A program made the position numbers and the translations under genes. Shown here one piece after another: positions 58,411 through 63,168 of a stretch of 64,000 nucleotides of DNA; position 1 is the first letter of the stretch; each line of letters starts with the position of its first letter. The notes beneath the pieces are model-generated. The model had not been told where the DNA came from and ran no database searches. It saw only the letters and a program-made list of their open reading frames with translations. The stretch lies in NCBI RefSeq assembly GCF_000974425.1, contig NZ_CP010429.1, positions 5,689,501 to 5,753,500 of the forward strand, given 5' to 3'. Source of the DNA: Spirosoma radiotolerans (GTDB lineage: Bacteria; Bacteroidota; Bacteroidia; Cytophagales; Spirosomataceae).

Positions 58411-58521
58411 TAGATTAATAATCAGAATGATGAATAATGAATTATGAATCATCCTGGCAATAAACGATAAAGTTGATTATTCATCCTTTTTCGTTCCTCA
58501 TTCATCCTTGTGATTAAGCCT

Positions 58522-58529
58522 TACCTTTG
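58522..58529 (+). promoter_or_regulatory. -7 element TACCTTTG for the GH3-like gene
   Basis: A TAnnTTTG match ending 7 nt before the GH3 ATG at 58537. Transcription would start at or next to the ATG, so the mRNA may be nearly leaderless. Confidence 0.55.
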
Positions 58530-58536
58530 TGCCATT

Positions 58537-60039
58537 ATGGGAATTCGTTCAGTCGTCAGTAAGCCATTAGCCAAGTTTGTAGTAGAGCGGCAGCAAGCCT
58601 GGATGTATCAGCCTGCCGAGGCTCAGCAACGCTGGTTTCAGCGCCTGATGGAAGGCGGCCGGGCCACTGTTTTCGGTCAGGATCATCATCTAAAGGATGT
58701 GCGAACGGTTGCGGACTTCCGGCAGGCGGTCCCTGTTCGCGATTACGAAGAATTGAAACCGTATATCGAGCAGATTTTAAGCGGTGGAACCGATGTGCTC
58801 TGGAAAGGAAAGCCGCTCTATTTTGCCAAAACATCCGGCACAACATCCGGCACCAAATATATTCCAATCACGCAGGATTCGATTCCAAACCATATTGATT
58901 CGGCCCGCGATGCGCTGCTGAATTACATTAACGAAACGGGAAACGGGGCCTTTCTGGACAAAAAATTAATTTTTTTATCGGGCAGTCCCGAACTGACTCA
59001 GAAAGCGGGCATCAACATTGGGCGCCTTTCGGGCATTGCCAATCACCATGTTCCGGCTTATCTGCGCACCAATCAGTTGCCCAGTTACGAAACCAATGTC
59101 ATCGACGACTGGGAAACCAAACTCGAACGCATCATCGATGAAACCCTGACCCAGCCGATGTCGCTTATTTCGGGCATTCCGCCCTGGGTGCAGATGTACT
59201 TCGACCGGATTCAGGAGCGAACGGGCAAGTTGATTAAAGATGTCTTCCCCGATTTTTCGGTGTTCGTGTATGGTGGCGTCAATTTCGAGCCCTACCGCGC
59301 CAAGTTATTCGACAGCATCGGCAAGCGTGTTGACTCCATCGAGACCTATCCGGCATCGGAAGGATTTATCGCGTTTCAGGATAGCCAGACGGAAGAAGGA
59401 TTACTCCTGTTGGTAGACAGTGGCATCTTTTTCGAGTTCATTGCTGCCGACGAGTACTTTACTGAAAATCCGCGCCGATTAACCATCGATGAGGTGGAGC
59501 TTGGTAAAAATTACGCGGTGATTATCAATAATAACGCCGGGTTATGGGGCTACTCGCTGGGCGACACCGTCAAGTTTGTCTCCAGAGAGCCGTATCGGCT
59601 TCTGGTAACGGGGCGTATCAAACACTTTATTTCGGCTTTCGGCGAACACGTCATTGGTGAAGAAGTGGAGAAGGCGTTGCAATTTGCCATGCAGAAACAC
59701 CCCGAAACCGAAGTGGTTGAGTTTACCGTAGCGCCCATGGTAAGTCCTAGAGAAGGCCTGCCGTATCATGAATGGCTGGTGGAGTTTGCCACACCCCCGC
59801 ACGATATGCGTGCATTCGCCCAGGCTGTAGACAACCGCCTGATCGAGCTAAACGTATATTATGACGACTTGATTACGGGTTCGATTCTGCAACCGTTAAA
59901 ACTGACAAGCTTGCCCCGTGGCGCCTTTCAGCGGTACATGAAGTCGCAGGGCAAGTTGGGCGGCCAGAACAAAGTACCGCGTCTGGCAAATGATCGGAAG
60001 ATTGCCGAAGGATTATTGGAGATAGGACAAACGGCGTAA
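58537..60039 (+). CDS. GH3-family acyl-adenylate-forming protein
   Basis: 500 residues. The GH3 family pattern is clear: SVVSKPLAKFVVERQQAW at the N-terminus, the ATP-binding loop FAKTSGTTSGTKYIPIT, VYGGVNFEPY, ETYPASEGFIAFQ, and NNAGLWGYSLGDTVKFVSREPYRLLVTGRIKHFIS. Plant GH3 enzymes link acyl acids to amino acids; bacterial members have no settled substrate. ATG 58537 was chosen over a GTG at 58510 because the family N-terminus begins there and the promoter element overlaps the longer form. Only 3 nt separate it from the AAA-ATPase gene that follows. Confidence 0.93.
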   Translation: MGIRSVVSKPLAKFVVERQQAWMYQPAEAQQRWFQRLMEGGRATVFGQDHHLKDVRTVADFRQAVPVRDYEELKPYIEQILSGGTDVLWKGKPLYFAKTSGTTSGTKYIPITQDSIPNHIDSARDALLNYINETGNGAFLDKKLIFLSGSPELTQKAGINIGRLSGIANHHVPAYLRTNQLPSYETNVIDDWETKLERIIDETLTQPMSLISGIPPWVQMYFDRIQERTGKLIKDVFPDFSVFVYGGVNFEPYRAKLFDSIGKRVDSIETYPASEGFIAFQDSQTEEGLLLLVDSGIFFEFIAADEYFTENPRRLTIDEVELGKNYAVIINNNAGLWGYSLGDTVKFVSREPYRLLVTGRIKHFISAFGEHVIGEEVEKALQFAMQKHPETEVVEFTVAPMVSPREGLPYHEWLVEFATPPHDMRAFAQAVDNRLIELNVYYDDLITGSILQPLKLTSLPRGAFQRYMKSQGKLGGQNKVPRLANDRKIAEGLLEIGQTA

Positions 60040-60042
60040 GCG

Positions 60043-61425
60043 ATGAAGATAACCGGAATAGACATTGGCGAATACCGCCAGTTCAAGAATATAAAATTTG
60101 ACTTTACCTATCCAAATGACCATCCAAAAGCTGGCCAGCCATTAGAGAAGGTGTGTTTTATCGGGCAGAGCGGAACGGGAAAGACGACGTTGCTAAGAAT
60201 AATTTGGGATTTTTTTCAAGTTATAAATGATGGCTATCAAATCTCAACGAATAGATTTTCGATTCCTACAGTCAGTCATTATGATACATTCAGAGCCAAT
60301 GTTTCTGTACATGCAAAAATCTCCGATCAAGCAATCCGTTTTGGATCCGAGTTTCTTCGTAGTCCTTCCGATTTATATACAAATAATGACAAAGATATTG
60401 CCGGTAGCAGTTTGGATTGGATTCAGTCACAACCTAGTAATATTTATGATGCTATAAAATCTTACAGCAAGCTATGCTTGTACATAGACGAATCTGCTCT
60501 TAGTTATGCATACAGTCTTACTGCAAACAGAAATGAAGATAACAGGGCCTATTTAGCTAGCACAGATGAGCTTTTTCTCATTAATGAGAAAAGACAAGAG
60601 TCTATTGATAGACTGGCCCAATCAAAAACACTGGCCTTCCACTCTTTGGATGGACGTTATTTGTGGTCTTATTTACTTAATGATATTGAAAAATATGATG
60701 AAAGCTTAAAGAAAGTTGCCATTGATCTTATTCAGAAAAATGGCAGTTTTTCACCTCATCGCTTATCTGAAAGCCTAAATAAGTGGCAAACTGAAAACCC
60801 TAATCCTAAGGTTGATATCGCTACTAATTGCCTAAATTCTGTTTTGAAAGATTTTTTTCTTGAAGTTGATACAGAAGGTACTGAAGCGTTAATTGTAATA
60901 AAAACGAAGGGTGGTAAACAGCTGGCTTTTAATGGCTTAAGTACTGGAACGAAGCAACTATTGGTAACAGCTATTCCTATTTATAAAAGCCAAATTAATA
61001 AGGGAGTTATTTTATTCGATGAACCTGAACACTCCTTATTCCCGGATATTCAGCGAAAGCTGGTAGATTATTACACTTCCCTTGCCCCTGAAGCACAATT
61101 CTTCTTCGCCACTCATTCGCCTATCATCGCATCAGCTTTTGAGCCATGCGAACGGTTCGTTCTATATTTTGATGAAAATGGCGAAGTAAATTATCATACC
61201 GGTGTTGCACCAGAAGGTGACGACCCGAATGATATTTTGCGTCAGGATTTCGCGATGGCTGAGTTGATGTTACAGAAAGGTCTTGATGAATATGAGTGGT
61301 ATCGGCAGCTTGCGATGCAGATTAGGGCAGAAACGGATGAGGAAAAGAAAAATCAACTTATTGCCGAACGGCTTGAATTAGGAAATCGCTACAATTTCGC
61401 TGGTCAATATGCGCAGAGTAAATAA
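60043..61425 (+). CDS. PtuA-like AAA/ABC-type ATPase of a putative Septu-like defence cassette
   Basis: 460 residues. Walker A is GQSGTGKTT (about 41-49), a degenerate signature LSTGTKQ lies near 299, Walker B ILFDEPE near 323-329 and the switch His358 is in FFATHSP. This is the SMC/OLD-like ATPase layout with a coiled middle (about 170-290). The C-terminal segment EGDDPNDILRQDF matches what I remember of PtuA and retron-associated ATPases. With the HNH gene, which overlaps it by 17 nt, it resembles the Septu PtuA-PtuB antiphage pair; defence is inferred, not shown. Lines I counted here are 35-42 per cent G+C against about 57 per cent in dxr, suggesting transfer. There is no insertion-sequence scar. 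Confidence 0.8.
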   Translation: MKITGIDIGEYRQFKNIKFDFTYPNDHPKAGQPLEKVCFIGQSGTGKTTLLRIIWDFFQVINDGYQISTNRFSIPTVSHYDTFRANVSVHAKISDQAIRFGSEFLRSPSDLYTNNDKDIAGSSLDWIQSQPSNIYDAIKSYSKLCLYIDESALSYAYSLTANRNEDNRAYLASTDELFLINEKRQESIDRLAQSKTLAFHSLDGRYLWSYLLNDIEKYDESLKKVAIDLIQKNGSFSPHRLSESLNKWQTENPNPKVDIATNCLNSVLKDFFLEVDTEGTEALIVIKTKGGKQLAFNGLSTGTKQLLVTAIPIYKSQINKGVILFDEPEHSLFPDIQRKLVDYYTSLAPEAQFFFATHSPIIASAFEPCERFVLYFDENGEVNYHTGVAPEGDDPNDILRQDFAMAELMLQKGLDEYEWYRQLAMQIRAETDEEKKNQLIAERLELGNRYNFAGQYAQSK

Positions 61426-61999
61426 GTCAGACAGTTCAGTTATTCTGCAAGAGAAGTTGACGTACAGAGTCGGGGGCGACAATAAAAAGTTGGCAAATGT
61501 GCTTTGCGATGAACAACACAATATCTGCGCTTACACGGAAACGTATTTGGGACGTTCGGACAAAAAAGATATAGAGCACTTTAACCCCACGCTAAAAGAC
61601 ACGCCTGATGATAGCTATCAGAATTGGTTTTTAGTTAAGGCTCAATGGAACGGTGAAAAGGCGTCGAAGTGGGAACAGTATCAACCCATTTTAAACCCAA
61701 CAGATGAGGCTTTTGAAGAGCGAATTATTTATTTTGAAGGTGACTATTTAGCTGCTTCGCTTAATGATCAAGAGGCTATTAACCTTATCAAACTCCTAAA
61801 ACTAGATGATGAAGGATTGGCATTTGAACGACGTTGCTACTTGGAGAACCTCAAAGAAACGCTTATTCTGTCAGACAAAACGGCTCAACAGTATATTGAT
61901 GACTTGTTAATGACAAGACCGAGTCTAGTTTATTACACCCGTGCCATCGAAGAAGAATTAGGAGTGAAAGTCAATTTCGACCTAGTAAAAACTAAATGA
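61409..61999 (+). CDS. PtuB-like HNH nuclease, variant with CAYT motif
   Basis: 196 residues. The core VLCDEQHNICAYTETYL, then DIEHFNPTLK (E56, H57) and NWFLVKAQWNGEK (N72, N81) fits the beta-beta-alpha HNH pattern of PtuB and retron HNH proteins. Those usually have CAYCE, with a zinc-binding second Cys; here it is Thr43. A conserved-looking tail QPILNPTDEAFEERIIYF follows. It would cut nucleic acid once licensed by the ATPase. Its start overlaps the ATPase gene by 17 nt and its stop overlaps the dxr start by ATGA, so it is translationally coupled to both. Whether this variant keeps nuclease activity is open. Confidence 0.78.
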   Translation: MRRVNKSDSSVILQEKLTYRVGGDNKKLANVLCDEQHNICAYTETYLGRSDKKDIEHFNPTLKDTPDDSYQNWFLVKAQWNGEKASKWEQYQPILNPTDEAFEERIIYFEGDYLAASLNDQEAINLIKLLKLDDEGLAFERRCYLENLKETLILSDKTAQQYIDDLLMTRPSLVYYTRAIEEELGVKVNFDLVKTK

Positions 62000-63168
62000 C
62001 TGACATAAAAAAACGCCATATCGCCATCCTCGGCTCTACAGGTTCTATTGGGACCCAGGCCGTTGAGGTGATAAAATCCCATCCCGACCAGTTTCAGGTT
62101 GAGGTGCTGACGACCAACAACAATGCCGATCTGCTCATTCAGCAGGCCGTTGAACTGAAACCGAATGTTGTGGTTATCTGCAATGAGAATCGCTACGATC
62201 AGGTTTTCTCGGCCCTCGACCCGTTGGGCATTAAGGTCTATGCCGGAGCCAAAGCCATTTCGTCGGTCGTGCAGATGGATACCATCGACATGGTGTTGAC
62301 GGCCATGGTGGGTTACGCCGGACTACTGCCCACCATCAAAGCGATTGAAGCAGGGAAGGCTATTGCACTGGCCAACAAAGAAACACTGGTGGTGGCAGGC
62401 GAGCTCATTACCCGACTGGCAGCCCAAAAAGGCATCAACATCTACCCCGTCGACTCGGAACATTCCGCAATTTTCCAGTGCCTGGTCGGTGAGTTTCACA
62501 ACCCAATCGAGAAAATTATTCTGACAGCATCGGGTGGGCCTTTCCGGGGAAAGACACCGGAATTTTTGTCGACCGTGACGAAAGCCCAGGCGCTCAAGCA
62601 TCCGAACTGGACGATGGGAGCCAAAATCACCATCGACTCGGCCACACTGATGAACAAAGGGCTGGAAGTCATTGAAGCCAAGTGGTTATTTGGCCTGACG
62701 GCCGAGCAGATCGACGTCATCGTTCACCCGCAGAGCATTATTCATTCGCTGGTGCAGTTCGAAGACGGCAGCCTTAAAGCGCAAATGGGCCTGCCCGATA
62801 TGCGCTTACCCATTCAGTTTGCACTGGGCTATCCCAATCGGCTGAAATCTGATTTTCCTCGCTTCAACTTTATAGATTATCCGTCGCTGACGTTCGAGCA
62901 GCCCGACCTGAAAACGTTTCGAAATCTTCAGCTTGCTTTCGATGCCCTGAAACGGGGCGGCAATGCACCCTGCGTTATTAACGCGGCTAATGAAGTAGCG
63001 GTCGATGCTTTCCTGAACGACCAGGTCAGTTTTCTGGAAATTTCGGATATCATTGAGTCCTGTTTGACTAAAGTAACTTTTGTCGAAAAGCCGACCTACG
63101 ATGACTATGTCTACACCGACGAAGAAACCCGTCGGCTTGCTACGGAGCGAATTAAAACTTTGGTTTAA
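61996..63168 (+). CDS. dxr: 1-deoxy-D-xylulose 5-phosphate reductoisomerase
   Basis: 390 residues, the family length. The NADPH loop ILGSTGSIGTQAVEVI, the metal site region YPVDSEHSAIFQCL, the flexible lid ASGGPFRGK and MNKGLEVIEA are all present. It makes MEP, the second step of non-mevalonate isoprenoid synthesis, which also feeds carotenoid formation by crtB and crtI elsewhere in the window. Its ATG overlaps the stop of the HNH gene, so its translation may depend on the preceding defence-like cassette. It is followed by rseP after 187 nt. Confidence 0.98.
   Translation: MTDIKKRHIAILGSTGSIGTQAVEVIKSHPDQFQVEVLTTNNNADLLIQQAVELKPNVVVICNENRYDQVFSALDPLGIKVYAGAKAISSVVQMDTIDMVLTAMVGYAGLLPTIKAIEAGKAIALANKETLVVAGELITRLAAQKGINIYPVDSEHSAIFQCLVGEFHNPIEKIILTASGGPFRGKTPEFLSTVTKAQALKHPNWTMGAKITIDSATLMNKGLEVIEAKWLFGLTAEQIDVIVHPQSIIHSLVQFEDGSLKAQMGLPDMRLPIQFALGYPNRLKSDFPRFNFIDYPSLTFEQPDLKTFRNLQLAFDALKRGGNAPCVINAANEVAVDAFLNDQVSFLEISDIIESCLTKVTFVEKPTYDDYVYTDEETRRLATERIKTLV

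Follow-up and report, generated by a model that had tools for sequence, protein, structure and literature searches.

The two-gene cassette ptuA-ptuB found in the window (the whole 64,000-nt stretch of Spirosoma radiotolerans DNA analysed here) is best read as a Septu type I anti-phage system that occupies a fixed chromosomal site and bears a swappable recognition centre in PtuA, a reading to which we assign a probability of about 0.6. As read from the aligned alleles, the PtuA centre has been swapped between alleles with alike flanks, independently of a module formed by the PtuA tail and PtuB. The gene pair as such is already catalogued Septu, and what is new is the centre exchange and not the genes; the fixed junction and the exchangeable PtuA centre are unusual features, invisible from a single sequence.

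The gene pair and its assignment to Septu

Both ORFs lie where the initial annotation placed them, overlapping by 17 nt (61409-61425), and the features of the locus are collected in Table 1. Only 3 nt separate the GH3 stop codon from the ptuA start and ptuB overlaps dxr by 4 nt, so that the pair is wedged into a housekeeping run with almost no spare DNA; a scan of the sequence gave 8 promoter sites where 8.3 were expected and 4 terminator sites where 5.6 were expected. Every motif quoted at first inspection was found in the translations, and beyond chance, since the key residues are invariant among relatives: G41-G44-T45-G46-K47, S300-G302-Q305, D326, E327 and H358 in 58 aligned PtuA relatives (of 120 listed), and H57, N72, N81 and K84 in a PtuB alignment of 42 sequences (the window plus 41 of 120 listed). 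Judged from these alignments, the catalytic motifs of PtuA are intact and the HNH protein PtuB retains an invariant H/N/K core. The Pfam HNH_4 profile scored 21.2 bits on PtuB, just under its 22-bit cut-off.

Table 1. Features of the ptuA-ptuB locus and of its borders (positions in the window).
Feature	Position	Strand	Evidence
GH3 family protein, 509 aa, slot's upstream border	58510..60039	+	Pfam GH3 5.5e-40
ptuA, ABC/OLD-like ATPase of Septu, 460 aa	60043..61425	+	PADLOC PDLC00274 628 bits; solved-PtuA fold match
Conserved 5' ptuA segment, residues 1-52, with Walker A; putative upstream recombination arm	60043..60198	+	
Walker A GQSGTGKTT, PtuA residues 41-49	60163..60189	+	invariant or nearly so, n=58
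Exchangeable central PtuA segment, residues 56-290	60208..60912	+	identity profile, matrix, breakpoints
Most variable PtuA stretch, residues 61-140	60223..60462	+	mean pairwise identity 0.15-0.19
ABC signature-like motif LSTGTKQ, PtuA residues 299-305	60937..60957	+	S300, G302, Q305 invariant
Conserved 3' ptuA core, residues 321-400; putative downstream recombination arm	61003..61242	+	identity 0.77-0.88
Walker B of PtuA	61009-61029	+	inside conserved 3' core
His switch of PtuA	61102-61122	+	inside conserved 3' core
PtuA tail, residues 392-460, co-inherited with PtuB	61216..61422	+	Mantel rho 0.74
ptuB, HNH effector of Septu, 196 aa	61409..61999	+	PADLOC PDLC00347 309 bits
HNH core of PtuB, residues 37-84 (HNICAYTE ... 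DIEHFNP ... NW ... WNGEK)	61517..61660	+	
dxr, DXP reductoisomerase, 390 aa, slot's downstream border	61996..63168	+	Pfam 1.2e-42

The proposal of a Septu-type pair held, PtuA and PtuB matching the PADLOC profiles with E-values of 2.4e-189 and 4.8e-93, respectively, in agreement with the PtuA fold. Structure prediction gave for PtuA a fold that matches solved PtuA (17% sequence identity with 8eea_D); the predicted model of PtuB was poor (mean pLDDT 65) and without a Foldseek match, and its best solved sequence match was the Ec83 HNH, at E 0.21. The descriptions "variant form" and "poorly described system" are unsupported for the gene pair as such, which fits one PADLOC PtuA and one PtuB profile end to end, full-length matches that rule out an undescribed system.

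As in Septu type I, the ABC/OLD-like ATPase PtuA carries Walker A, signature, Walker B and His switch, the HNH protein PtuB is encoded beside it, and no reverse transcriptase precedes ptuA, GH3 being found there instead. In the excerpt available of one source, Septu type II is defined by the reverse transcriptase (PMC8565338). Retron type I-A (Septu type II; Ec78/Eco7, Ec83/Eco4), in which a reverse transcriptase and the msDNA RNA gene lie upstream, was rejected, there being no reverse transcriptase and GH3 lying 3 nt 5' of ptuA; the NCBIfam equivalog cut-offs of retron Ec78 were missed (PtuA 52.4 of 500 bits, PtuB 31.1 of 150). PARIS (AriA-AriB) was discarded because the partner fits PtuB profiles and the PtuA profile is far stronger, at 628 bits; AriB was absent among the PADLOC matches listed (25 of 32), and the other neighbours are GH3 and dxr. 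Gabija and OLD nuclease were rejected for want of a C-terminal Toprim domain on PtuA: Toprim is absent from the 14 Pfam families listed for the locus up to E = 1, and past residue 395 the PtuA model is predicted to hold helices only. From E. coli Septu (PDB 8eea, 8ee4) the present pair differs by the fixed GH3-dxr junction and the exchanged centre, both read in Spirosoma-type alleles only.

A fixed GH3-dxr junction of variable content

By search, the pair was found in 17 of 36 Spirosoma genomes and was absent from 19, some of them incomplete, and all the 17 copies sit between GH3 and dxr, hereafter the slot. The window's own genome returned a single match when searched for a second copy. The slot does not account for all Septu-like genes of the genus, as more distant PtuA-like genes lie elsewhere in genomes G019 (58% over residues 1-59 and 35% over 155-384) and G004 (31%, next to a 34% PtuB-like match).

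The junction survey comprised 33 of 34 genus genomes with dxr found. As read from these assemblies, the junction content varies among relatives, which carry the pair, toxin-antitoxin pairs, both, remnants or nothing. The pair is alone in 11 junctions, accompanied by a ParE-type toxin-antitoxin pair in one (L069), by MNT-HEPN in two (L058, L081) and by MNT alone in three (L078, L079, L083). MNT-HEPN without the pair occupies eight junctions, with the HEPN frame-split in L060, and the ParE-type pair alone one (L080). Remnants were seen in three, consisting of part of MNT (L066), of the end of ptuB (L075) or, in L062 (genome G004), of both Septu pair ends around ORFs that are transposase-like by eye; two junctions (L070, L072) hold a gene of 405-420 aa, glycosyltransferase-like by eye, and in two (L055, L064) no gene was seen. 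Naming was based on Pfam Polbeta and NTP_transf_2 (MNT, also PADLOC PDC-S09), HepT-like PF01934 (HEPN) and PF05016 (ParE-type toxin). The last gene of the MNT-HepT pair also overlaps the dxr start, at L054:11270-12008 and in other junctions, sometimes beside the Septu pair, and the ParE-type toxin with its small partner gene (L069, L080) is a third kind of module in the junction. The dxr of genome G015 (L084) matched in two pieces in different frames, reflecting a sequencing error or a damaged gene.

Transfer, which the initial annotation had put forward, is supported by low G+C, patchy presence and decayed remnants. Of the base composition it reported, the low value stood (36.5-41.4% in 1-kb windows), but the neighbours are at 51.9% and 52.4% and not at 57%. 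A genus core gene, which it had named as evidence against a defence module, is ruled out by occurrence in 17 of 36 genomes. There is no classical defence island around the close relatives, which occupy one housekeeping junction common to toxin-antitoxin pairs, where unlike defence and toxin-antitoxin modules replace or join each other. As to carriers, no match was found in 50,697 phage records, and 6 of 72,556 plasmid records matched, all at less than 35% identity and one covering at least 80% of the query.

Forty genomes from the family's other genera were examined as well. The pair lies ahead of dxr in 5 of them; MNT-HEPN is intact in 2 (L119, L127), split in one (L120), and partial or weakly matching in another 3 (L122, L123, L128); the GH3 and dxr matches adjoin each other, 18-80 nt apart, in 14; and the GH3 match is missing from the examined stretch in 15. 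On these contents, direct adjoining of GH3 and dxr is probably the older state, and the junction has since probably been filled, emptied and refilled. PtuB relatives are encoded at 28 loci of a second collection, which overlaps the first. The nearest 17 (L087-L103, from Spirosoma, Larkinella, Fibrella, Fibrisoma, Rudanella, Arsenicibacter and others) are each followed by dxr; GH3 borders 16 of them on the opposite side, and the remaining one is on a contig that starts within ptuA. The other 11 are more distant (42-50% identity) and occupy sites other than GH3-dxr.

A role in housekeeping or stress linked to dxr or GH3, instead of defence, would also fit the fixed place and the 4-nt overlap with dxr. 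We find such a role scarcely credible, given the 19 genus genomes (some incomplete) from which the pair is absent by search, its lack in most family genomes examined, where GH3 and dxr often adjoin, and the location of the distant relatives at other sites.

In two Flavobacterium loci (L105, L114) the distant pair follows a PurK-like gene (Pfam), perhaps another fixed housekeeping site, and in a third (L113) the size and position of the neighbouring gene make a PurK-like neighbour probable. Locus L102 (JAPQNS010000006.1), recorded as 'Flavobacterium sp. SUN052', carries mreB and dxr resembling those of Spirosoma at 97% and 85%, respectively, so that the record is probably misnamed or contaminated. 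Runella limosa (L107) has two ptuAB-like pairs within 6 kb, on opposite strands, one with an ATPase of 558 aa.

A variable centre within a conserved ATPase

The identity profile was drawn from 116 PtuA homologues, that is the best 120 of 1,355 matches minus 4 dropped by length. Residues 1-60 show a mean pairwise identity of 0.74-0.89; it falls to 0.15-0.19 in residues 61-140, is 0.27-0.54 in residues 141-300, and rises through 0.66 (residues 301-320) to 0.77-0.88 (residues 321-400), the tail being at 0.51-0.60. Between residues 52 and 207 no column reaches 90% in 58 aligned sequences, and single linkage at 50% identity yields 33 clusters of the centre versus one of the tail. The centre is the lowest G+C part of ptuA in all the 18 slot alleles (0.30-0.37), and its G+C is below that of ptuB in 17 of them. 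The same contrast between ends and centre is seen in eight distant PtuAs outside the slot, and in the three Flavobacterium ones alone. An insert more variable than its ABC head is not unusual in itself; in RecF, a control housekeeping ATPase of similar layout, identity stays at 0.60-0.98 in 28 genus genomes (28 of 30 loci, L168 and L177 giving no recognised ORF). In one metagenomic PtuA homologue of 508 aa (P0100) the predicted protein includes a GH3 C-terminal Pfam domain as well, as though the reading frame of GH3 had continued into ptuA.

Two modules with separate histories

Distances were correlated among the 18 slot alleles (17 from Spirosoma and one from Fibrisoma). Mantel rho is 0.74 for tail vs PtuB and 0.61 for centre vs core, and is 0.00 for centre vs tail and 0.08 for centre vs PtuB. 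Either module gives -0.11 to 0.10 with GH3 or dxr, which correlate with each other at 0.59; the first 52 residues of PtuA are weakly correlated with GH3 and dxr (0.30 and 0.38). Segments of RecF correlate weakly too (0.05, 0.26 and 0.35), so that for short, conserved segments a low rho says little by itself.

Tree comparisons were made alongside. The tail-plus-PtuB tree is rejected by the centre data by 1,467 lnL units and the reverse comparison gives 1,219, whilst the housekeeping tree is rejected by the centre data by 1,669 and by the tail-plus-PtuB data by 1,031; altogether, the differences of the modules from housekeeping data or from each other amount to 604-2,076 lnL. The modules are imperfectly coherent, as the core tree is rejected by the centre data (332) and the tail tree by the tail-plus-PtuB data (93). 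These tests are over-sensitive, because the AU-test controls were rejected as well, GH3 and dxr rejecting one another by 74 and 44 lnL and parts of RecF by 119 and 38.

Exchange of the centre between alleles

Up to about ptuA codon 52, the alleles of S. sordidisoli (L078) and S. lacussanchae (L079) share 95.1% identity across 4,693 nt; between there and about codon 321 the figure drops to 0-71% in windows of 8 codons, and from there to the ptuA end it recovers to 83-100%, with PtuB 98% identical; the breakpoints are sharp and fall near codons 50-56 and 321-330. Loci L067 and L068 show 100% nucleotide identity between about codons 357 and 428, and diverge before and after this stretch. The window allele compares with that of S. 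migulaei (P0033) at 0.92 in the N segment, 0.23 in the centre, 0.92 in the core and 0.95 in the tail (PtuB 85%), and with that of S. horti (P0002) at 0.96, 0.89, 0.84 and 0.54, respectively (PtuB 56%). By thresholds set by the analyst, 39 pairs resemble centre swaps and 80 tail switches among the 116 homologues (from the best 120 of 1,355 matches).

For centres of the same class, dN/dS lies at 0.05-0.16 wherever the synonymous distance is unsaturated, the 'inf' values of saturated distances being left out of the ratios. In three swapped pairs the centre (residues 56-207) has a dN of 1.1-1.2, versus 0.05-0.08 for the N segment and 0.06 for the tail. The low within-class ratios indicate that the variety comes from replacement of the segment, and positive selection on point changes is unsupported by them. 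Third-position identity is 0.63 at the ptuA start and at the ptuB end, 0.32-0.50 inside the cassette and 0.46-0.55 in its borders, as expected if the cassette ends served as recombination arms, to which constraint on the start region could add.

Transfer of whole Septu cassettes followed by fast divergence of a poorly constrained insert, with no functionally meaningful exchange, would account for the low G+C and the patchy distribution (17 of 36), and RecF, too, varies somewhat more in its middle than at its start (mean distance 0.15 vs 0.09). The PtuA contrast (0.63 vs 0.11), however, is far above that of RecF, centres within a class are under purifying selection, and such a course does not yield flanks of 95-100% identity around a replaced centre, nor one centre class on different effector modules; we thus regard it as very improbable.

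Proposed function of the exchange

In the preferred reading of a Septu system with a swappable recognition centre, an anti-phage function is assigned to the pair by analogy with studied relatives, the centre would be an exchangeable trigger-recognition domain and the tail with PtuB the putative effector module. The exchanged centre is a natural candidate for cue recognition. A more specific form of this reading, whose odds we judge to be about even, makes PtuA an immune receptor whose locus is kept and re-targeted through centre replacement, tail and PtuB being swapped separately, which would give combinatorial diversity of sensors and effectors at one fixed site, common to toxin-antitoxin pairs.

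By comparison with studied Septu and retron PtuAB, PtuA would hold PtuB under control in a complex until a phage cue shifts its ATPase state, upon which PtuB would cut nucleic acid, which in the systems studied is tRNA-Tyr or DNA, and phage growth would stop. The exchange pattern suggests that it is the variable centre that meets the cue; recombination in the conserved PtuA ends would replace the centre, and a swap would alter sensing with ATPase and nuclease unchanged. In E. coli Septu EcB88, as described in the excerpt available, defence is lost when the Walker or the HNH motif is mutated, and cleavage of tRNA-Tyr falls in the variable loop (PMC13096335). Excerpts of two sources cite nicked DNA as the target of another Septu (PMC13096335, PMC11555353).

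The main rival to cue recognition, which we hold to be rather unlikely, accepts the same system and the same exchange but has the centre replaced to escape phage inhibitors that bind it, so that the trigger may be common. The exchange pattern fits any selection for a new surface and cannot separate escape from sensing; to our knowledge, no PtuA inhibitor has been described. An extra phage tRNA-Tyr does rescue T6 from Septu EcB88, acting, in the excerpt available, on the target and not on PtuA (PMC13096335). Less probable still is a centre that sets assembly or the substrate of PtuB, for instance which tRNA or DNA is cut, instead of sensing. Targets do differ between PtuABs, since retron-Eco7 PtuAB depletes tRNA-Tyr and retron-Eco4 PtuAB does not, according to the part of the source at hand (PMC11555353), and the dimerisation domain of OLD is described, in an excerpt, as inserted in the ATPase domain, to which the centre may correspond (PMC10568477). 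Independent inheritance of centre and PtuB (rho 0.08) would nevertheless be odd if the centre had to fit the nuclease or its substrate.

Under recognition by the centre, the locus can be set beside other diversified systems. In type I restriction, the target-recognition domains of HsdS are swapped. The evolution is alike, conserved arms flanking a recognition segment that is replaced at one locus; here, however, the exchanged segment lies inside an ATPase and there is no methylase. Retroelement-diversified conflict systems have putative immune sensors with a variable part, as presented in the excerpt available (PMC10907252), and differ by targeted hypermutation, whereas here a segment is replaced. 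If the reading is true, a defence ATPase joins the bacterial immune proteins diversified by segment exchange. The natural alleles, which vary chiefly in a single domain while ATPase frame and nuclease are near-identical, make the Septu trigger directly testable, and no engineering is needed to compare their phage ranges and triggers. Titles and abstract starts of the open-licence literature yielded nothing on an exchangeable PtuA centre or the GH3-dxr junction, nor did that literature yield anything on Septu in Spirosoma.

The linkage between tail and PtuB seen in the alleles is consistent with docking. Of the chains in the E. coli complex, two of PtuA run to 445-456 residues, whereas the others, and PtuA alone, have 364-403; a tail ordered by PtuB would explain the longer chains, as judged from chain lengths alone.
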